Shown here: positions 5,907-31,181 of the stretch, piece after piece | Layout: each line of letters starts with the position of its first letter | Position numbering within the stretch: the first letter of the stretch is position 1 | Source of the DNA: Halobacteriales archaeon QS_5_70_17 | GTDB lineage: Archaea > Halobacteriota > Halobacteria > Halobacteriales > Haloarculaceae | Assembly (NCBI GenBank): GCA_003021975.1 | Contig: PXRR01000053.1 | Location: forward strand, 34,381-69,400 | Length of the DNA: 35,020 bases | Reading direction: 5' to 3' | Program-made: the position numbers and the translations under genes | The notes under the pieces: generated by a model | Told to the model about the DNA's origin: nothing | What the model saw: only the letters and a program-made list of their open reading frames with translations | Database searches by the model: none

Positions 5907-7237
5907 ATGGTTAACGATGGTAGTGGCGGGAAGAGTGACGCGAATCGTGGTAGTGATGGTAGCGATACCGGAAACGATGGAAGGGCGGTCCGTCGCCGCT
6001 CCCTCCTGAAGACCTCGGGTGCCGGCGTCGTCGGCCTGTACGTCGAGACAACGAGACCGACTCCGACGGCGGTTCCGGGGGAGACTTCCCGGACACGATC
6101 TCCGTCGGCGTGCTCGCGCCCGAGCCCTCGGACAACCCGATCGGCGCCTCCATCGCCAACGGGGCGCAACTCGCCGTCGACGAACTCAACGCCGACGGCG
6201 GCATCGGCGGCGCCGATGTCGAGATCAGCGTCAAGGACACCAAGGAGGACCCGGCGACCGGCCGCTCGCGGTACCAGGAGCTGACGGTCAACGAGGGGGT
6301 CGACGTCACGACCGGCGTGTTCACCAGCGAGGTCCTGTTGAACATCATGGACGACATCGCCCAGCAGCAGACCCTCCACATGACCGCGGGGGCGGCGACG
6401 CCCGAGGCGAGCGCCCGCGTCGCCGAGAACTACGAGCAGTACAAGTACCACTTCCGGACCGGACCGACCAACGCCAGGCACCTCGGACAGAACATGGTCG
6501 ACTTCGTCGAGGCCAAGTCTGGCGACCTCGGCTGGGAGTCGGTGGCAGTCCTCGTGGAGGACTACGCCTGGACTGAACCGGTCTCGGCGGTCCTCGACGA
6601 GAAGCTCGGGGACACCGGCGTCGAGGTGGCGATGAGCCAGCGCTACGCCTCCGGCACCGAGAACTTCGGGCCGGTCTACGACGAGGTCGAGAACTCCGGG
6701 GCCGACGCGGCGTTCGTCGCGATGGCCCACACGGGGACGCCGGCGGTCGTCCAGTGGGCCAGCCAGCAGCGGCCCTTCGAGTTCGGGGGCATCCACGTCC
6801 CCATGCAGCTGCCCTCCTACTACGAGGCGACCGACGGCGCGGTCAACTACGGCGTCACCCAGAACTCCGCGACCCCCCAGAGCGAAGTGACCGACAAGAC
6901 GGTCCCGTTCGCGGAGAACTACAACGAGGAGTTCGGCAGCTATCCGGTCTACACGGGCTACATCGCCTACGACGCCGTCCACCAGTTCGCCTCCGTCGCC
7001 GAGGAGGTCGGGAGCGTGGCCAGCGACGACCTCGTCTCCGGACTCGAGGAGAGTTCCTACACCGGTACCGCCGGCACCATCGAGTACTACGGCCCCGACG
7101 ACCAGTTCGCCCACGACGTGGTCTACGAGGAGGGGAAGGTCTGGCCGATCTTCATGCAGTGGCAGGACGGCAACCAGGAGGTCATCTACCCCGACGACCT
7201 CGCGACCGCCGACTACCAGACGCCCCCATGGGTCTGA
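5907..7237 (+). pseudogene. Branched-chain amino-acid-type (LIV) ABC transporter substrate-binding protein, frameshifted after its Tat/lipoprotein leader
   Basis: 5907 frame: MVNDGSGG...RRRSLLKTSGAGVVGL (Tat-like). Mature protein continues in the 6110 frame: RDNETDSDGGSGGDFPDTISVGVLAPEPSDNPIGASIANGAQLAVDELNADGGIGG... Confidence 0.8.
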
Positions 7238-8157
7238 ACCTCCTGGCGGTCGCCGCCGTCGGAGGGGCGGGCGCGCCCGCCGCGATCCTCCAGTCGGGAG
7301 TCTCGAACATCGTCGTCAACGGGCTGATCATCAGCGCGCTGTACGCCGTCGTCGCGATCGGGTTCACGCTGATCTTCGGCGTCGGGGGCGTGTTGAACCT
7401 CGCCCACGGCGCCTCGATCACCGTCGGCGCCTTCGGGGCGTACTACGTCGCCCGCGTGTTCGGAATGGGCGCCTGGGCCGGCCTCGTCGCGGGCGTACTC
7501 GTCGCGGCAGCCTTCGGCGCCGCGCTGTACCTGGCGATGATCCGGCGCATGGAAGACGAGCCGATCATGGTGATGATCCTGACGCTGGTGACCGCCGTCG
7601 CCGTCGAGCAGTTCGTGCTCACCGTCGAGGGCTCCCAGCCGAAGGCGATCCCGGCGCTCGTCGGAGGAGTCACACGGGTGGCGGGGACGAACCTCCAGCA
7701 CAACCTGGTGGTAGTGTTCGCCGTCTCCTGGGCGATCATCCTCGCACTGTTCCTGTTCGTCAACTACACCGACGCGGGGAAGGCGCTGATCGCAACGAGC
7801 ATGAGCCGGAAGGGGGCCGCGCTCGTCGGCATCGAGTCCGACCGGGTCAACCTCGCGACGTGGGTCATCGCCGGCGCGCTGGCCGGACTCGCTGGCGTGT
7901 TCCTCGGCTCGTTCCAGACCGCCCACTGGGCGATGGGGCGCGCGCCGCTCGTCCTCTCGTTCACCATCGTCGTCCTCGGCGGCGTCGGGTCGATCAAGGG
8001 GAGCGTCGTCGGCGCGTACCTCATCGGCTTCTTGGAGGTGATCACGACGCGCGTGTTCGACCCCCGGCTCCAGACGCTCGTCCCGCTGGTGGTGTTGCTG
8101 CTCGTGTTGCTCGTCAAGCCCGAGGGGCTGTTCGGCCGCGAACTGGCGGAGGCCTGA
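7228..8157 (+). CDS. livH: LIV-type ABC transporter permease (LivH)
   Basis: MGLNLLAVAAVGGAGAPAAILQSGVSNIVVNGLIISALYAVVAIGFTLIFGVGGVLNLAHG...; overlaps SBP 3' end. Confidence 0.92.
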   Translation: MGLNLLAVAAVGGAGAPAAILQSGVSNIVVNGLIISALYAVVAIGFTLIFGVGGVLNLAHGASITVGAFGAYYVARVFGMGAWAGLVAGVLVAAAFGAALYLAMIRRMEDEPIMVMILTLVTAVAVEQFVLTVEGSQPKAIPALVGGVTRVAGTNLQHNLVVVFAVSWAIILALFLFVNYTDAGKALIATSMSRKGAALVGIESDRVNLATWVIAGALAGLAGVFLGSFQTAHWAMGRAPLVLSFTIVVLGGVGSIKGSVVGAYLIGFLEVITTRVFDPRLQTLVPLVVLLLVLLVKPEGLFGRELAEA

Positions 8158-8160
8158 CCC

Positions 8161-9468
8161 GTGAGCGACGACACGCTCGGCGAGGACGCCGCGGTCGAGC
8201 AGTCCTCGCCCGCGACCGGTCGGTCGCTCCCGGCCCGGTACGTCGCGGGGCTGATCGGGCTCGCGCTGCTCGCGGTCCTGCCCGTGCCGAGCCTGCTCGG
8301 CGTCGAGTCGGTGACGCTGTTCGGGACCGTGACGATCACCTTCGGCCTCAGCAGCTACCAGCTACTGCAGGTCGCCGGGGCGTTCTACTTCGCGATGTTC
8401 GCGATGAGCTGGGACGTCGTCTCGGGGTACACCGGTCAGATCAGCTTCGGTCACGGGTTCTTCTTCGCGCTCGGGGGGTACACCTCGGCGCTGTTGAACC
8501 TCACCTACGGCGTCGCCCCGCTCGCGGCCATCCCGGCGGGCGTCGCCGTGGCCGCGCTCGGCGGCGTCGTCATCGGGGTCCCCGCGCTCCGCCTTCGGGG
8601 ACCGTATCTCTCGCTCGTGACGCTGGTCGCGCCGCAGGTGCTGCTCAGCGTCTTCATCCTGTTCAGCGGGACCTTCGGGGGCGAACTCGGGCTGTCGAGT
8701 CCCGACAACCTGCTGGGTGTCGGGCTCGGTAACCCCGTGCTGGTCTACTACATCGCCTTCGCGCTGTTCGTGGCCATCCTGGCGGTGCTGCTGGCCGTGA
8801 CCCGATCGAGCGCCGGCGCGGTGTTCACCGCGATCCGCGAGGACGAGGACGCGGTGGCCGCCGCGGGGCTGAACCCGGCGAAGTTCAAGACCTTCGCGTT
8901 CGTCCTCAGCGCGGCCGTCGGCGGGCTGGCGGGCGCGGTGCTCGTCCACACCCCCGTCGGCAACCCCCAGCCCAGCCAGCTACTGGCCACGCAGGTGAGC
9001 ATCGAGGTCATCATCGCCGCCATCCTCGGCGGCATGGGGACCATCGTCGGGGCGGCCATCGGGGGGCTGATCGTCTACCTCCTCCCGGAGTACCTCAACA
9101 CGGTCGAGTACGTCGTCCCGGTGCTCGATGCGCCGGTCTCGGAGATCGACTTCCTGCTGTTCGCGGTGATCGCGCTCGTCCTGCTGTTCGTCATGCCCGG
9201 GGGAGTCCTCCGGGCGGCGCTCCGGATCGCCCGGGACCGGCTCTCGGATCGCCGCGGGGAGGGCGTGGCCGCCGACGGCGGTCGCCGTGCGCGCACCCCG
9301 GTCGAACAGGTCCGCGAGCGGTGGCGCTCGGCCGTCGAGCGAACGCTCGGGCGAGGTCCGGACCGGGAGCGACGAACGACAGACGGCCGCCGATCCGACG
9401 GCCGCCGAGCGGACGACCGAGACGCGAACCGCGGTCACGAGAACGGAGGCGACACGGATGAGCACTGA
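8161..9468 (+). CDS. livM: LIV-type ABC transporter permease (LivM) with long charged C-terminal tail
   Basis: GTG start; GYTGQISFGHGFFFALGGYTSALLNLTYG...VGNPQPSQLLATQVSIEVIIAAILGGMGTIVGAAIGG. Confidence 0.92.
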   Translation: MSDDTLGEDAAVEQSSPATGRSLPARYVAGLIGLALLAVLPVPSLLGVESVTLFGTVTITFGLSSYQLLQVAGAFYFAMFAMSWDVVSGYTGQISFGHGFFFALGGYTSALLNLTYGVAPLAAIPAGVAVAALGGVVIGVPALRLRGPYLSLVTLVAPQVLLSVFILFSGTFGGELGLSSPDNLLGVGLGNPVLVYYIAFALFVAILAVLLAVTRSSAGAVFTAIREDEDAVAAAGLNPAKFKTFAFVLSAAVGGLAGAVLVHTPVGNPQPSQLLATQVSIEVIIAAILGGMGTIVGAAIGGLIVYLLPEYLNTVEYVVPVLDAPVSEIDFLLFAVIALVLLFVMPGGVLRAALRIARDRLSDRRGEGVAADGGRRARTPVEQVRERWRSAVERTLGRGPDRERRTTDGRRSDGRRADDRDANRGHENGGDTDEH

Positions 9469-10252
9469 ACCAGACGCGGCGGGCGCGACCGGCGAGGGGA
9501 CTGTGGGGTACGGCCCCGACGACGGCGTGCTCGTCATCGAGAACCTGACGAAGCGCTTCGGGGGACTGACCGCCGTCGACGACCTCTCCTTCGCGGTCCG
9601 GGAGCGGGAGATCCTGGGGTTCATCGGACCGAACGGAGCGGGCAAGTCGACGACGTTCAACTGCGTCACCGGCCGGTACCCGCCGACCTCGGGGACGGTC
9701 TGGTACCGCGGGGAGGACGTCACCGGCGAGTCGGCCCACGAGATGGTCAACAGTGGGCTCGCGCGGACCTTCCAGGAGTTCCGCCCGCTGCACGACCGCA
9801 CCGTCGTCGAGAACGTCGCCATCGGGCTGGTGCCCGACCGGCTGTTCTCGCTGGCGGGGCTGCGCGGCGAGACCGGACAGCGCGCGGCGTCGATCTGCCG
9901 GCGGGTCGGGCTGGGCGACCGGCTCGAACTCACCCCGGACGAACTCCCCCACGCCGGCCTGCTGCGCCTCGAACTGGGCCGGGCGCTGGCGACCGATCCG
10001 GACATGCTGCTGGTCGACGAGCCCTTCGCGGGCCTCTCGGGGCCGGAGGTCGAGAGCGTCTCCGGGCTGCTCCGGGAACTGCGCGACGAGGGGCTCACCC
10101 TCGCGGTCGTCGATCACAACATGCGGGGCCTGCTCTCGCTGATCGACCGCGCCGTCGTCATCAACTTCGGCGCGAAGATCGCCGAGGGCGCTCCCGAGGA
10201 GATCCGGCAGGACCCGGAGGTCCAGCGCGCCTACCTCGGAGGTGACCTCTGA
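9458..10252 (+). CDS. livG: LIV-type ABC transporter ATP-binding protein (LivG)
   Basis: MSTEPDAAG...ENLTKRFGGLTAVDDLSF...GPNGAGKSTTFNCVTG...LLVDEPFAGL. Confidence 0.93.
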   Translation: MSTEPDAAGATGEGTVGYGPDDGVLVIENLTKRFGGLTAVDDLSFAVREREILGFIGPNGAGKSTTFNCVTGRYPPTSGTVWYRGEDVTGESAHEMVNSGLARTFQEFRPLHDRTVVENVAIGLVPDRLFSLAGLRGETGQRAASICRRVGLGDRLELTPDELPHAGLLRLELGRALATDPDMLLVDEPFAGLSGPEVESVSGLLRELRDEGLTLAVVDHNMRGLLSLIDRAVVINFGAKIAEGAPEEIRQDPEVQRAYLGGDL

Positions 10253-10989
10253 TGGCGACGACCGACGCCGCCGCCCCCGAGTCCGCCCCGGACGTGCTCT
10301 CGACGGACGACCTGCGGGTGACCTACGGGAAGGTCCTCGCGCTGCGCGAGATCGACCTCACAGTCCGCGAGGGCGAGGTCGTCTCGGTCATCGGGCCGAA
10401 CGGCGCGGGCAAGACGACGCTCGCGAACACGGTCTCGGGCTTTCTCGACTACGAGGGCAGCGCCGAGTACCGCGGCCGAGAGGTCGCCGACCGGTCGGTC
10501 AGCGACCTCGTCTCGGAGGGGCTGATCCACTGTACCGAGAAGCGGGACCTCTTCGGGTACATGACCGTCGACGACAACCTCAGGCTCGGGGCCTACCGCC
10601 ACGGCGAGGACGCCGACGAGCGCCTCGAGTACGTCTACGACCTCTTCCCCGCGCTGGCCGAGCGCACCGAGCAGAACGCCCGGACGATGAGCGGCGGCGA
10701 GCAGCAGATGCTCGCCATCGGCCGGGCGCTGATGGGCGCCCCCGACCTGCTCGTGCTCGACGAACCGACGCTCGGCCTCGCGCCGGTCATATTAGAGGAC
10801 ATCAGCGACGCCATCGAGGAGATCAACGACGAGGGCGTCACCGTCCTGCTCTTCGAGCAGAACGTCACGTTCGCGATGAACCACGCCGACCGGATCTACC
10901 TGCTGGAGAACGGCGAGGTCGTCCGAGAGGGTTCCCCCGGGGAGCTCCGCGGGGACGACTACATCCGGGAGTCGTACCTCGGCGGGTGA
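10252..10989 (+). CDS. livF: LIV-type ABC transporter ATP-binding protein (LivF)
   Basis: TDDLRVTYGKVLALREIDL...GPNGAGKTTLANTVSG...MSGGEQQMLAIGRALM...LDEPTLGLAP. Confidence 0.95.
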   Translation: MATTDAAAPESAPDVLSTDDLRVTYGKVLALREIDLTVREGEVVSVIGPNGAGKTTLANTVSGFLDYEGSAEYRGREVADRSVSDLVSEGLIHCTEKRDLFGYMTVDDNLRLGAYRHGEDADERLEYVYDLFPALAERTEQNARTMSGGEQQMLAIGRALMGAPDLLVLDEPTLGLAPVILEDISDAIEEINDEGVTVLLFEQNVTFAMNHADRIYLLENGEVVREGSPGELRGDDYIRESYLGG

Positions 10990-11084: not shown

Positions 11085-11102
11085 AACCACTCCGGAGTGG
11101 TT
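11085..11102. promoter_or_regulatory. Perfect 18-bp palindrome AACCACTCCGGAGTGGTT, candidate operator
   Basis: Read directly; 13 nt upstream of ATG 11116, overlapping/adjacent to TATA-like GCTAAAC. Confidence 0.6.
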
Positions 11103-11115
11103 GTTTCCCTCAGGC

Positions 11116-12684
11116 ATGGCGAATCTGGTAGTAGACGTCGGCGAGACTGCGGAGCGACGCCCCGACGCGACGGCCATCGGGTTCCGGGACCGCGAGATCA
11201 CCTACGGCGCGTTCTGGTCACGGGTCGGGCGGTTCGCGGCCGCCCTCCGGGAGCGCGGCGCGGGGGCCGGCGACCGGGTGGGGATCTACCTCCCGAACCT
11301 GCCGCAGTTCGTGACCGCCTTCCACGGGACGCTCCGGGCCGGCGGGATCGTCGTCCCGATGAACCCCCAGTACAAGAGCCGCGAGGTCGGCCACCTACTG
11401 GCTGACAGCGGGGCGACGGCCGTCGTCACGCTCGCGGACCTCGTTCCCGTCGTCCAGCAGGCCCGCGAGGAGAGCGGGACGGACGTCGAGACGGTCGTCG
11501 CCGTCGGCGAGGGCGCGGCCGACGCCGAGGGGGCGACCGACTTCGAGGCGTTCCTCGCCGACGAGGAACTCGACGTCGTCGAGCGCGACCCCGACGACGT
11601 CGCCTGTCAGCCGTACACCTCCGGGACCACCGGCAAGCCCAAGGGCGTGTTGCTCACCCACGAGAACCTCGGGTCGAACGCCCGCGCGACGGGCGACCTG
11701 ATGCCCGGCGGGTTCCGCGAGGACGACAAGATGCTGGGGGTCCTCCCGCTCTTCCACATCTACGGGATGACCGTCACGATGCTCGGCACGCTGTTCAACG
11801 GCGCGGCCTACTACCCGATGCCCGCGTGGGACGCCCGGGAAGCCGTCGACCTCATCGAGTCCGAGGGCATCACTATCATGCACGGCGTGCCCGCAATGTA
11901 CAACGATCTGATCAACCAGCCCGACGCCGAGGAGTTCGACCCCTCCTCGGTTCGATTCGCCAACTCCGGGGGGAGCAGCCTGCCGATCGAGGTGATGCGG
12001 CGCTTCGAGGAGCTGTACGACGTCGAACTCTACGAGGGCTACGGGCTGACCGAGACCAGCCCCGTCACCCACGCCAACCGCCCCGGGGAGCGCCGTCCCG
12101 GATCTATCGGCAAGCCCATCGACGGCGTCGAGGCGACGATCGTCGACAGGGACTTCGAGCCGGTCGCCCCGGTCGAGGAAGGCCCCGTCGACGAGGAGGA
12201 GGTGGACCTCGACGAGATCACGGGCGAACTCGTCGTCGCCGGTCCGAACGTGATGAAGGGGTACTACGAACTCCCCGAGGCCAACGAGGCGGCGTTCACC
12301 GAGCGCGACGGGACGCGGTGGTTCCAGACCGGGGACGTCGGCTACCGCGACGAGGACGGCTACTACTACGTCGTCGACCGCGAGAAGCACATGATCAACA
12401 CCGCGGGGTACAACGTCTACCCCCGGGAAATCGAGGAGCTGCTCTTCGAGCACCCCGCGGTCGCCGACGCCGCCGTCGTCGGCGTCCCCGACGAGCGCCG
12501 GGGGGAGACCGTCAAGGCGTTCGTGGTGCCGGCGCCCGACGCCGACGTGACCGCCGACGGGATCCGGGAGTACTGCCTGGAGAACCTCGCGGAGTACAAA
12601 CACCCCCGCGAGGTCGAGTTCGTCGAGGAACTCCCGCGGACGACGACGGGGAAGGTCCAGAAGTTCGAACTGCGCGGGGAGTGA
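11116..12684 (+). CDS. Long-chain fatty acid / carboxylate-CoA ligase (AMP-dependent synthetase)
   Basis: YTSGTTGKPKGVLLTHENL, GYGLTETSPV, NVMKGYYELPEANEAAF, PRTTTGKVQK motifs. Confidence 0.95.
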   Translation: MANLVVDVGETAERRPDATAIGFRDREITYGAFWSRVGRFAAALRERGAGAGDRVGIYLPNLPQFVTAFHGTLRAGGIVVPMNPQYKSREVGHLLADSGATAVVTLADLVPVVQQAREESGTDVETVVAVGEGAADAEGATDFEAFLADEELDVVERDPDDVACQPYTSGTTGKPKGVLLTHENLGSNARATGDLMPGGFREDDKMLGVLPLFHIYGMTVTMLGTLFNGAAYYPMPAWDAREAVDLIESEGITIMHGVPAMYNDLINQPDAEEFDPSSVRFANSGGSSLPIEVMRRFEELYDVELYEGYGLTETSPVTHANRPGERRPGSIGKPIDGVEATIVDRDFEPVAPVEEGPVDEEEVDLDEITGELVVAGPNVMKGYYELPEANEAAFTERDGTRWFQTGDVGYRDEDGYYYVVDREKHMINTAGYNVYPREIEELLFEHPAVADAAVVGVPDERRGETVKAFVVPAPDADVTADGIREYCLENLAEYKHPREVEFVEELPRTTTGKVQKFELRGE

Positions 12685-27001: not shown

Positions 27002-27192
27002 GCCGAGCAGTGAGCGGGGGTCTCGCTCGCGCCCGCGGACGGGACTGCCGCTTCTACCGCCGCTGCCACTGACGGGCCGGCCGGCGCGTCCGCCAGTCGC
27101 TGGCCGCCCGCGCCCGCTCGACGCCGGAGCCGTCGCTCGATCCCCGGGCGGCCCGCAGGTATTTGTTCGGGGGTCGCCAACCCGGAGTGAAG

Positions 27193-28434
27193 ATGGCCGA
27201 GGGACCGGAGTGGTTCGCGGTGGGGTTGCTCGTCGCCGCCTTTCTCCTCGTCGCGGGGACGGTCGGCGGGGTCACGTCGCCCTCGCCCGGGGAGACGTCC
27301 CCGCCGAGTTCTCACGCGGTGTCCGACGACCCGCTGCTCGTCGAACTGCGCGACGACGGGGAGCCCGCCCACCACCTCTGGCCGTACACCAGCAGGCGGA
27401 AGACCTTCGACAGCAGGACGCTGGGGATCAACGTCGTCGTCTACGAGGACCCCGTCATCGTCCGGCGGGCGATGGCCGGGGGGACCGCCATCGAGTGGAT
27501 CCCGGCCAACAACACGACGACCGACGCCGACGCCGAGACCCACTCTATCGAGATCGACGGGCGGGGGATCGCGTGGAGCGACGCCGAGGGCGCGGTGCGG
27601 TACACCTACGTCGAGACGAGCGACGGCGAGAAGCGGTGGCTGCGCGAACGCTTCCAGGTCCGGGACGGCCCCTACCTCGGCTCGCGGGACCACATCCGCG
27701 CCTACGGGGTCCGCGACGGCGGCTGGACGGCCATGCAGGCCCACACCGAACACTGGGACTGGTTCCGCCTGCGCCACAGCGTCTCGGGAGTGACGGACGC
27801 ACAGCAGCGCGTCGAGATGGACTTCATGGAGGCGCGGTTCGTCGACGACGTCGCCCGGAGCTACTACGGCAACGGCGACACCGCCGACGACGACGGCTGG
27901 GTGACGGTCGTCTCGCTGGACGGGCGGCTGGCGGTCCTGGGGGCGGTCCTGGGGGCCGTCGCCCTCCCCTCGCGGCGGGAACTCCGCGAGCGGTTCGACG
28001 TCACCGACCTCCGAGAGGTCGCCGACGCGCTCGCGCCGCTGCTCGTTCCCGGGGCCCTGTATCTCGGCGTCCGCCTCGGCGGAATCGCGCTGGAGACGAC
28101 CACCGGCGCGCCGCCGAAACTCATCGCCGCCACGCTCTACCCGGTGATCGCCGTCGGCGTCCCGGGGTTCGCGTTCGTCCTCCCGCGACGGCGGGCCCGG
28201 ATCACTGCCTTCGTGCTGGTCGCCGCCGGCCTCAGCGCCGCGTTCTTCGCGGACTACCTCCTGTTGGGCATCGACGTGCTCTCGCTGCGGTCGATCCACT
28301 ACCGCGGCGCCGTGGTGCTCTCGGCGGGGCTGGTCGCCGCCGGCGGCGCGGACGGACGCGACCGCGAGATCGCCGCCACGGGCGTCGTCTGCTGGTTAGC
28401 GACCCTCGTCGCCCCGCTGGTCGGCGCGGTCTGA
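27193..28434 (+). CDS. Polytopic membrane protein with large N-terminal extracytoplasmic domain (tentatively LssY_C-like)
   Basis: N-term TM, soluble domain with GSRDHIRAYGVRDGGWTAMQAHTEHWDWFRLRHSVSGVTDAQQRVEMDF, then several TM segments. Confidence 0.7.
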   Translation: MAEGPEWFAVGLLVAAFLLVAGTVGGVTSPSPGETSPPSSHAVSDDPLLVELRDDGEPAHHLWPYTSRRKTFDSRTLGINVVVYEDPVIVRRAMAGGTAIEWIPANNTTTDADAETHSIEIDGRGIAWSDAEGAVRYTYVETSDGEKRWLRERFQVRDGPYLGSRDHIRAYGVRDGGWTAMQAHTEHWDWFRLRHSVSGVTDAQQRVEMDFMEARFVDDVARSYYGNGDTADDDGWVTVVSLDGRLAVLGAVLGAVALPSRRELRERFDVTDLREVADALAPLLVPGALYLGVRLGGIALETTTGAPPKLIAATLYPVIAVGVPGFAFVLPRRRARITAFVLVAAGLSAAFFADYLLLGIDVLSLRSIHYRGAVVLSAGLVAAGGADGRDREIAATGVVCWLATLVAPLVGAV

Positions 28435-28460: not shown

Positions 28461-28521
28461 TCCAGGTGATCTCGTTTCGTGACGGTCGACGATTCGGAGT
28501 CCATCTGTGGGTACTGTACAC

Positions 28522-30312
28522 ATGGAATTGAAGACGCAGACGACGACGCGCCGAGCCCTCCTTCGCGGCGCCGCGAGCCTCTCGCTCGCAGCGACGGCCG
28601 GGTGCGTGGGCGACCTCCGGAACGTGGTCGGTCGCGACCAGTCCGACCGCGTCTCGCTGCGCGTCAAGACGCTCCCGACTGACTCGGACCCCCACGCGAT
28701 CCACGTGGCCCGCCGGCTCACGAACGCGCTCGAGGCGGTGGGCGCGGAGGTGGAACTGCTCCCGATGGTCGAGGAGGAACTCTACCGCGACGTGCTGATC
28801 AACCACCAGTTCGACCTCTACGTCGCGCCGTTTCACGGCGAGCGGGACCCGGACTTCCTCCGGCCGCTGTTTCACTCCCGGTACGCCAGCGAGCGCGGCT
28901 GGCAGAACCCTTTCGGCTACTCCGATCTCGAACTCGACGACCTCCTGGAGCGCCAGCGCCGGACCGCCGGCGACACGCGCCGGTCGATCGTCGCAGACGC
29001 CCAGACGGCCGTCGCGGAGGCCCAGCCTTGCACCGTCGTCGCGTTCGCCGACGAGATCCTCGCGGCCCGCGACGACCGGTTCGCCGGCTGGCGGCACGTG
29101 CGCCCGACGCGTTCGCTGGCCTACCTGGCGGTCCGATCCGTCGACGGGGCCGGTGAGGCCGGCGAGGCCGACGGGCAGTCGACTCTGACCGCGCTGTTGC
29201 GCGACAAGCGGCCGACGCGCAACCTCAATCCGATCGCCGTCGAGCACCGCCGCCGGGGGACCGTCACTGGACTGCTCTACGACGCCCTCGGGACGTGGTA
29301 CGGCGGCGACGTCGAACCGTGGCTGGCCGCCGACTGGCGCTGGGACGTGCACGACGACGGCGGCCAGCACGCCACTATCCCGCTGCGGGAGGCGCGGTGG
29401 CACGACGGCGAACCGGTGACGGCCGGCGACGTCGCGTTCACCTACCGGTTCCTCTCCGACACCTCTCTCGGCCGGGCGGACTCTCCGGTCCCGACCGAGC
29501 GCTTCCGCGGGGAGGCCTCGCTCGTCGAGGGGGTCTCGGCGATCGACGAGCGGACCGTCGGGATCGCCTTCGGGGAGACCACCAAGGCGGTCGCCCGGCG
29601 GGCGCTGACGGTGCCGATCCTCCCCGAACACGTCTGGAGCGAGCGGACGGGGTCGGCGTCGGTCGCCGGCGTCGAGGTCGACGAGGGGACGACGACCGCC
29701 CTCGTCACCGACAACCTCGAGGCCGTCGGCAGCGGCCCCTTCGAGGTCCGAGAGGTCGAGACCGACCGCAGGGTCGTCCTGACGGCCGCCGCCGAGCACT
29801 TCTCGGAATCGATCGGCGGTTCACTCGGGACGGTCGTCGGCGCCGTCCCCTACGATCGACTGGTCTTCCGGCCGCTGCCCTCCGACGAGGTCGCCGTCGA
29901 GACGCTCGCGGCCGGCGACGCCGACGTCGTCGCGAGTTCGCTCGGTCCGGGCGCCGTCCCCCAGGTGGGCTACGCCGACGCCGTGAACCTGATCGTCAAG
30001 CCCTCCCGGACGTTCTACCACGTCGGGTACAACACGCGGCGGGCGCCGCTGTCGAACCCCCGATTCCGGCGTGCGGTCGCGCGCCTGATCGACAAGGGGG
30101 CCGTCGTCGACGACGTCTTCGACGGCTACTCCCGCCCCACCGCCAGCCCCGTCGCGGACCGGGACTGGATCGCGCCCGCCCTCGAGTGGTCGGGGGAGGA
30201 CCCGGTGCTCCCGTTCGCGGGCGAGAACGGGGAACTCGACGTCGAGAGCGCCCGCCAGGAGTTCGTCGACGCGGGCTACAGCTACCACGACGGCGGGCTC
30301 TACGCCCGGTGA
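28522..30312 (+). CDS. Tat-exported lipoprotein, SBP_bac_5 (peptide/nickel type) substrate-binding protein with apparently permuted lobe order
   Basis: TTRRALLRGAASLSLAATAGC leader. C-lobe-like VSLRVKTLPTDSDPHAIHVARRLTNALEAVGAEVELLPM...FDLYVAPF...GYSDLELDDLLERQRR comes first, then N-lobe-like TVTGLLYDALGTW...PWLAADWRWDVHDDG...LREARWHDGEPVTAGDVAFTYRF. Confidence 0.85.
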   Translation: MELKTQTTTRRALLRGAASLSLAATAGCVGDLRNVVGRDQSDRVSLRVKTLPTDSDPHAIHVARRLTNALEAVGAEVELLPMVEEELYRDVLINHQFDLYVAPFHGERDPDFLRPLFHSRYASERGWQNPFGYSDLELDDLLERQRRTAGDTRRSIVADAQTAVAEAQPCTVVAFADEILAARDDRFAGWRHVRPTRSLAYLAVRSVDGAGEAGEADGQSTLTALLRDKRPTRNLNPIAVEHRRRGTVTGLLYDALGTWYGGDVEPWLAADWRWDVHDDGGQHATIPLREARWHDGEPVTAGDVAFTYRFLSDTSLGRADSPVPTERFRGEASLVEGVSAIDERTVGIAFGETTKAVARRALTVPILPEHVWSERTGSASVAGVEVDEGTTTALVTDNLEAVGSGPFEVREVETDRRVVLTAAAEHFSESIGGSLGTVVGAVPYDRLVFRPLPSDEVAVETLAAGDADVVASSLGPGAVPQVGYADAVNLIVKPSRTFYHVGYNTRRAPLSNPRFRRAVARLIDKGAVVDDVFDGYSRPTASPVADRDWIAPALEWSGEDPVLPFAGENGELDVESARQEFVDAGYSYHDGGLYAR

Positions 30313-31181
30313 TCCCCGTGCAGTTGGGCGACGTCCCCGTCGGACTGCTCGCCGTCCTCCTGCAGGTCGTCGCCATCTGCGGGGCGATGCTGGCGGCGGC
30401 GGCGCTGCTCGTCGTCGGACCCCGCCGACTCGTCCGGACTGGCCGGGAGGTCCCCGATCGACTGCGGGCGGTCGCACCCAGCCTCGTCCTGCTCGGCGCC
30501 GTCCTGCTGGTGAACAAGGTCGCCCGCGACTACGGGCCGGGGGTCTCCTGGACCATCGGCTGGAACGTCACCGGGATCATCTTCGGGATCGAGGGGACCT
30601 TCGTCGCGTGGGTCCAGTCGCTTGCGACGCCGCCGCTGACGGCGTACTTCTCGTTCGCGTACGTCTACGGCTACGTGTTCCTGCTGGTCTTCCCGCTGAT
30701 CGCGTACCTCTCGCTGTCGGACCCGGACCCGCTGCGCCGGACGGCGGTGGCCTACGCGCTCAACTACGCCATCGGACTGGCCTGTTACGTCGTCTTCGTC
30801 TCCTACGGGCCGCGCAACCTGATCCCGGACCTCGTCGATCCGTTGCTGTACAGCAACTACCCGACCTCGCGGCTGCTCACGCAGGAGGTGAACCGGAACA
30901 CGAACGTCTTCCCCTCGCTGCACACCTCGCTGTCGGTGACCGTCGCCCTGCTGGCCCGGGAGACCCGCGATCGCTACCCGCTGTGGACGCCGATCGCGGT
31001 CGCGCTGGCCGCGAGCATCGTGATCGCGACCGTCTACCTGGGCATCCACTGGGGGATCGACGTGCTCGCCGGGATCGCGCTCGCAGTCGGCAGCGTCAGG
31101 GGCGCGCGCGCCCTCGTCGACCAGAACGCCCCCGGCGAGCGCCCGGCGTGGCTGGACGCGCTCGTCGCCCGCTTCGGGTAG
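30309..31181 (+). CDS. PAP2 superfamily membrane phosphatase / inositol phosphorylceramide synthase-like protein
   Basis: NTNVFPSLHTSLSVTVALL and YLGIHWGIDVLAGIALA PAP2 motifs; GTG start overlaps SBP stop (GTGA). Confidence 0.85.
   Translation: MIPVQLGDVPVGLLAVLLQVVAICGAMLAAAALLVVGPRRLVRTGREVPDRLRAVAPSLVLLGAVLLVNKVARDYGPGVSWTIGWNVTGIIFGIEGTFVAWVQSLATPPLTAYFSFAYVYGYVFLLVFPLIAYLSLSDPDPLRRTAVAYALNYAIGLACYVVFVSYGPRNLIPDLVDPLLYSNYPTSRLLTQEVNRNTNVFPSLHTSLSVTVALLARETRDRYPLWTPIAVALAASIVIATVYLGIHWGIDVLAGIALAVGSVRGARALVDQNAPGERPAWLDALVARFG

Follow-up and report, generated by a model that had tools for sequence, protein, structure and literature searches.

A natural circular permutant in the SBP_bac_5 family of substrate-binding proteins and its conserved pairing with a PAP2_3 gene in haloarchaea

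A lipoprotein gene at positions 28522-30312 (+) of the window (the whole 35,020-nucleotide stretch of Halobacteriales archaeon QS_5_70_17 DNA analyzed here) raises the question of whether a DppA/OppA-type substrate-binding protein (SBP) of the SBP_bac_5 family has been circularly permuted in nature: the initial annotation proposed that the C-terminal segment of this protein comes first and the N-lobe second. The ORF runs from ATG 28522 (an alternative in-frame GTG lies at 28507) to TGA 30310-30312 and encodes 596 amino acid residues. It opens with a Tat signal peptide and lipobox (28522-28605, +) in which the twin arginines are residues 10 and 11 and the lipidation cysteine is Cys28; R10, R11, G27, and C28 are invariant in a 38-sequence alignment, meeting the criterion for an export signal and lipid anchor. 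In canonical SBP_bac_5 proteins, both termini lie in lobe I.

Comparisons with canonical proteins show that the segments are swapped. Specifically, i) PF00496 is the sole Pfam family found, matching in two stretches at 155.5 bits (cut-off 32.4; E 2.8e-45), and the best stretch (residues 264-592) spans profile positions 2-284 of 368 and ends near the protein C-terminus; ii) a profile derived from 13 canonical haloarchaeal SBPs matches in two segments of swapped order, H381-527 at residues 45-192 (28654-29097, +; 41 bits, i-E 4e-12) and H46-377 at residues 208-587 (29143-30282, +; 151 bits, i-E 3e-45), which together cover nearly the whole mature model once and without overlap, and a search with this profile found neither a second C-lobe nor a second N-lobe in the protein; iii) when the mature sequence is rotated in 5-residue steps and the best single-domain score recorded, the score rises from 151 bits in the native order to a maximum of 198.5 bits at a cut near residue 204, and drops to 90 bits at unfavorable cuts, a pattern that chance does not explain; iv) phmmer places query residues 211-545 on residues 9-307 of PDB chain 5isu and query residues 66-195 on 360-486, again swapped; and v) the C-segment maps to residues 348-498 of AppA, directly adjoining 29-348, while the natural ends of the protein map between mature residues 344 and 345 of E. 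coli DppA, just before the strand beginning SIDLWAM. We conclude that the protein is a natural circular permutant of SBP_bac_5 in which nothing has been duplicated, a conclusion shown by sequence and model, without experiment; it meets the PF00496 homology criterion for family membership but fails the criterion that the segments be in canonical order and both termini in lobe I.

Homology leads us to infer that residues 208-587 represent lobe I and the first half of lobe II, and homology together with an AlphaFold2 model that residues 45-192 make up the rest of lobe II (its second half) and then lead back into lobe I. The joint, where the old C-terminus runs into the old N-terminus (residues 193-207; 29098-29142, +), is the gap between the two profile segments, and a low-confidence loop (residues 210-217, pLDDT below 50) lies just past it in the model. 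The new C-terminus and stop codon (30283-30312, +) directly follow the AGY helix, and the model places terminal strands at residues 587-589 and 592-595.

The model itself, predicted from 38 permuted homologs, has a pLDDT of 87.9 and a pTM of 0.85, against 77.3 and 0.78 for a control model of a canonical paralog from the same genome (L181). Once the permutant is rotated, the secondary structure elements of the two pair one-to-one: the first elements of the permutant (strand 45-50, helix 57-72, strand 76-81, helix 84-93, and strand 99-105) correspond to 402-407, 411-426, 430-435, 438-447, and 455-461 of the paralog; helices 110-117, 136-147, and 150-167 and strand 170-183 correspond to 466-474, 490-501, 505-522, and 525-538; and the last helices (513-520, 525-532, and 574-583) correspond to 330-337, 342-350, and 385-394. 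With Foldseek, whose alignments keep to the sequence order, the best matches of the permutant are cluster-C SBPs; in these PDB proteins only about 260-420 columns are aligned (TM, by target length, 0.31-0.54; best E about 1e-14), compared with about 474-523 columns for the canonical paralog (TM up to 0.87, best E about 1e-40); this poorer coverage despite a better model is the pattern that a permutation predicts. The model is thus predicted to meet the criterion of a bilobed cluster-C fold with all elements present, the element map and Foldseek standing in for an order-independent superposition. Among the PDB chains retrieved by sequence searches, only canonical segments were matched and none through the joint, and we found no solved structure with the permuted order among them.

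The central claim of the initial annotation therefore held by profile, rotation scan, and model. The motifs it quoted are present, although its placement of the N-lobe from about 29178 was slightly off, LNPI being residues 235-238 (about 29224-29235). It named two findings that would refute the claim, and neither was borne out: the N-terminal 180 or so residues are not an unrelated domain but are homologous to the canonical C-terminal segment, and no second C-lobe was found at the C-terminus. The check it suggested for swapped blocks in a family HMM was run and gave, with the canonical profile, the two segments in swapped order. Three matters go beyond it and are taken up below: a probably ancient permutation shared with bacteria, a PAP2 partner in the place of an importer, and a second, independent permutation in the same genome.

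A homolog survey, also suggested there, shows that the permutation is widespread. Mapping with the canonical profile found the same order at the same break in 39 homologs, and when GTDB genomes were scanned with divergent haloarchaeal members, 79 of the 80 loci found independently in this way had the C-segment ahead of the N-segment and shared the breakpoint, the sole exception (L165) being truncated by a contig edge. These 80 loci span Halobacteria, Alpha- and Gammaproteobacteria, Spirochaetota, Trueperaceae, Clostridia, Chloroflexota, Actinomycetota, and others. More than half of 60 relatives contain a full-length match with the segments in that order; 234 of 244 genomes of the class match at E ≤ 1e-20, about 150 of them (counted from the table) at E ≤ 1e-150, and the listed best matches run from about 5 to 592 of the model in one piece. 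We refer to the proteins sharing this breakpoint as CP1, comprising the group of the window protein (CP1-A) and its sister group (CP1-B), whose hosts are haloarchaea, one other archaeon, and scattered bacteria; a further CP1 member (L232) was found beyond the taxonomic order of the window, in an archaeon belonging to its phylum. Each of six bacterial genomes checked carries one or two permuted copies beside several canonical ones. The possibility that CP1-B is general in proteobacteria was rejected, since only the centre genome was positive (E ≤ 1e-90) when 200 Pseudomonadota genomes were sampled; its bacterial occurrence is patchy, and rare in Pseudomonadota at large. Many of the bacterial CP1-B loci in the scan (L100-L179) come from halophiles and soda-lake sediment assemblies, and these source habitats suggest horizontal spread in saline or alkaline settings.

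Because the cores were rearranged to canonical order before alignment, segment order does not by itself shape the tree. The CP1 rows all group together in a single clade both in a 98-row tree (SH-aLRT 98) and in a more careful 61-row tree (94/94), in which CP1-A and CP1-B each have a bootstrap of 100 and CP1-A is a separate, long-stemmed clade. We wish to stress that the latter support for a single origin is 94 and not above 95, and that there are long branches among the outgroups; the CP1 permutation is likely, but not proven, to be one ancient event common to archaea and bacteria.

The gene neighborhoods of the two groups differ. DppB lies beside CP1-B in 76 of the 80 scan loci and in all 7 loci of the haloarchaeal set, and the four CP1-B loci with neither DppB nor DppC span only 4-8 kb; this gene order indicates that permutation does not preclude use with an importer. 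On plasmid 2 of Ketogulonicigenium vulgare (L217), the CP1-B operon also includes M20/M28 peptidase and hydantoinase/oxoprolinase genes, a gene content that hints at an amino-acid or peptide ligand in cyclic or modified form. By the test for a DppABCDF-type importer subunit, namely that cognate permeases and ATPases adjoin, CP1-B passes and CP1-A does not: DppB and DppC are absent from 19 CP1-A loci of 16 kb and from the 35-kb window. DppD-like matches near some CP1-A loci and in the window were set aside as distant (25-32%) generic ABC ATPases, those in the window falling on branched-chain amino-acid-type ATPases. The window has a branched-chain amino-acid-type ABC permease and two ATPase genes at 6754-10989 (+), followed by an AMP-binding acyl-CoA ligase gene at 11101-12684; all are ordinary by Pfam.

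What does follow the CP1-A SBP gene, in 57 of 59 loci, is a PAP2_3 gene, at a spacing of -4 to +8 nt in 41 of 47 loci (computed with the start codon nearest the SBP stop). In the window this partner, predicted to be an integral membrane enzyme of the AUR1/lipid phosphatase superfamily, occupies 30309-31181 (+), its GTG start overlapping the SBP stop by 4 nt (GTGA); it meets PAP2_3 membership with PF14378 at 72 bits (cut-off 27) and PF01569 at 38 bits. The PAP2 motifs (Y)GPRN, FPSLH, and HWxxD are conserved in 46-47 of 47 loci, FPSLH together with HW..D in all 47, and the partner shares both the membrane-enzyme type and these last two motifs with PF14378 AUR1-type lipid phosphatase-phosphotransferases. 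NCBI labels such pairs 'ABC transporter substrate-binding protein' and 'phosphatase PAP2 family protein'. From gene order and conservation, we conclude that the CP1-A SBP and PAP2_3 form a conserved two-gene unit in haloarchaea. In two related genomes (L043:6956-11528, - strand; L044:7151-11763, - strand), two CP1-A SBP genes flank one PAP2 gene in a tandem SBP-PAP2-SBP array. Directly upstream of the SBP gene in the window lies a predicted ORF of 423 amino acid residues (27163-28434, +) with no Pfam match and a counterpart at only a few other loci; it is doubtful that it belongs to the unit.

In DppA, mature Arg355 and Asp408 hold the ends of the dipeptide; these are the positions mutated in PDB 8z1z (383 and 436 in precursor numbering). 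CP1-A has T or A at the first and a gap at the second, failing the test for a DppA-like dipeptide binder. Because these ligand residues are not conserved, a dipeptide ligand is unlikely for CP1-A, an inference from sequence alone without binding data.

How does the window protein compare with known systems? Once rotated, it has full-length homology to canonical cluster-C SBPs (PF00496; AppA 1xoc, DppA 1dpp, CcNikZ-II 8efz, and NikZ), with which it shares the predicted bilobed fold, export (as a lipoprotein in archaea), and WHDGEP, GSGP, and DPD-type motifs; it differs in its swapped segments, its termini in lobe II, and the loss of R355/D408, and CP1-A differs further in having no adjoining importer permease genes. 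CP1-B (for example KVU_RS15710 of Ketogulonicigenium vulgare and DEJ54_RS20240 of Nitratireductor) has the same permutation at the same breakpoint and is sister to CP1-A, but DppB/C/D/F genes adjoin it, PAP2 does not, and it is annotated only as 'ABC transporter substrate-binding protein'. The closest parallel in kind is TpMglB-2 (Tp0684) of Treponema pallidum, described as a 'Cluster Bc' circularly permuted glucose-binding protein, whose authors proposed a link between permutation and membrane tethering (PMC4990184): it too is a naturally permuted, bilobed, lipid-anchored ABC SBP with relatives in other species, but it belongs to an unrelated subfamily, the type I/cluster B sugar binders, and its gene clusters with those of its own permease and ATPase. 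The window protein is not TpMglB-2-like, all of its listed family and fold matches being cluster C. In the open-access full-text literature we found no natural cluster-C permutant, only TpMglB-2 and engineered sensors, although a subscription paper could have been missed; the initial annotation likewise knew of no described permuted member of the family. Nor did the open-access literature searched contain any description of a PAP2 enzyme with a substrate-binding lipoprotein as its partner. As a separate matter of annotation, a canonical SBP_bac_5 gene of Rhizobium sp. CC-CFT758 (L222:2405-4008) is annotated as two overlapping ORFs, probably reflecting a frameshift or sequencing error.

The second permutation, CP2, was found in the same genome but outside the window, in a 580-residue SBP_bac_5 protein (L183:976-2718, +; G000 contig C54). 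Here the relocated piece is no more than the canonical tail (model 485-523), which now precedes model 62-486. Fifteen haloarchaeal loci (L185-L199) have this order, while close orthologs (L200-L214), 55-73% identical across the shared core, have the canonical order with that tail motif at their C-terminus, and CP2 nests inside the canonical orthologs in the 98-row tree. The old C-terminus, 'ARRDERIEAYA', is followed within about 10 residues by the old mature N-terminus, 'VRITQSQ', an end-to-start junction that is what a duplication-trimming model predicts. Most CP2 genes keep DppB/C neighbors. We conclude that CP2 is independent of CP1, younger, and at another site; with its canonical orthologs it provides a rare before/after pair for studying how permutation happens.

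For the origin of the CP1 protein and its present role we propose the following account, which on balance we favor, if by no wide margin, and in which the ligand, the PAP2 interaction, and the mechanism are all inferred. A tandem SBP gene duplication would have been followed by in-frame fusion and by loss of the front of the first copy and the back of the second. The old lobe I termini would now be joined by a short linker, and the chain would open in a lobe II loop, which would therefore place the lipid anchor on lobe II rather than lobe I. The permutation would have occurred in an ABC-importer SBP; CP1-B members may, judging from gene order, still serve Dpp-type importers, and the CP1-A SBP would have left the importer and joined a PAP2_3 membrane enzyme in a two-gene unit. 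As a Tat-exported lipoprotein, it may sit on the outer face of the membrane as a receptor of the Venus-flytrap type, capturing a small polar ligand that may be presented to the PAP2_3 enzyme as headgroup or acceptor; alternatively, the ligand-bound SBP may gate the enzyme, whose active site would be expected on the same side of the membrane as the SBP. The bolder reading, that an importer-born permutant was recruited as an extracytoplasmic receptor or substrate-presenting subunit of a PAP2_3 enzyme, is offered only tentatively, as we think it slightly more apt to fail than to hold. We wish to stress that the evidence for the PAP2 link is gene order and conservation, that co-transcription need not mean physical coupling, and that the lack of a neighboring permease does not exclude an importer encoded elsewhere, the assembly being 73% complete.

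Indeed, the alternative that survives best is that the permuted SBP is an ordinary importer subunit feeding a DppBCDF-type transporter encoded elsewhere, and that PAP2 is merely co-transcribed. This remains possible and cannot be excluded: permuted CP1-B relatives are encoded with DppB/C/D/F, there are four other SBP_bac_5 genes in the assembly, and orphan SBPs sharing a permease are common. Against it stand the PAP2 pairing itself, kept in nearly all loci with genes mostly overlapping or nearly abutting, the absence of an adjoining importer permease gene from every one of the 19 CP1-A loci, and the separate, long-stemmed position of CP1-A. A second alternative, that the CP1 order arose repeatedly by convergent permutation at the same loop, is unlikely. 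Permutation does recur in SBP_bac_5, CP2 being independent of CP1, and the single-clade support in the careful tree is no higher than stated above, but CP1-A and both bacterial and archaeal CP1-B share one breakpoint position in the HMM (about 377-396), and the larger tree supports CP1 more strongly. A third, that an unrelated domain was added as the N-terminal 180 or so residues, or that the gene is a fusion or duplication without true permutation, could appeal to the weaker score of the C-segment match than of the N-segment match, but is all but excluded: the C-segment is significant in the window protein (P0001) and mostly reaches 50-80 bits in CP1-B, it maps on AppA beside the N-segment with no second copy, and the model elements agree after rotation; all three variants were rejected on the 5isu, canonical-profile, and AppA mappings. 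Finally, an assembly artefact or a rearrangement confined to this assembly, which has 78 contigs and is incomplete, is refuted by the same order in dozens of other genomes, including one-contig assemblies (G008, G010, and G057) and annotated plasmid records of Haloferax, Haladaptatus, and Halostagnicola.

To return to the permutant itself, few binding proteins have been studied as thoroughly as those of the DppA/OppA type, yet a widespread and probably ancient permuted clade has only generic annotation. The cluster-C fold tolerates natural permutation at least twice, and the permuted SBPs allow a direct test of whether the lipid-anchoring side matters for docking. That the SBP-PAP2 unit is conserved across haloarchaea points to an envelope-lipid function that has gone unrecognized; if the bolder reading were true, the unit would be a hitherto undescribed two-protein system of the envelope, and the shift of the anchor to lobe II would in part have enabled the new docking.
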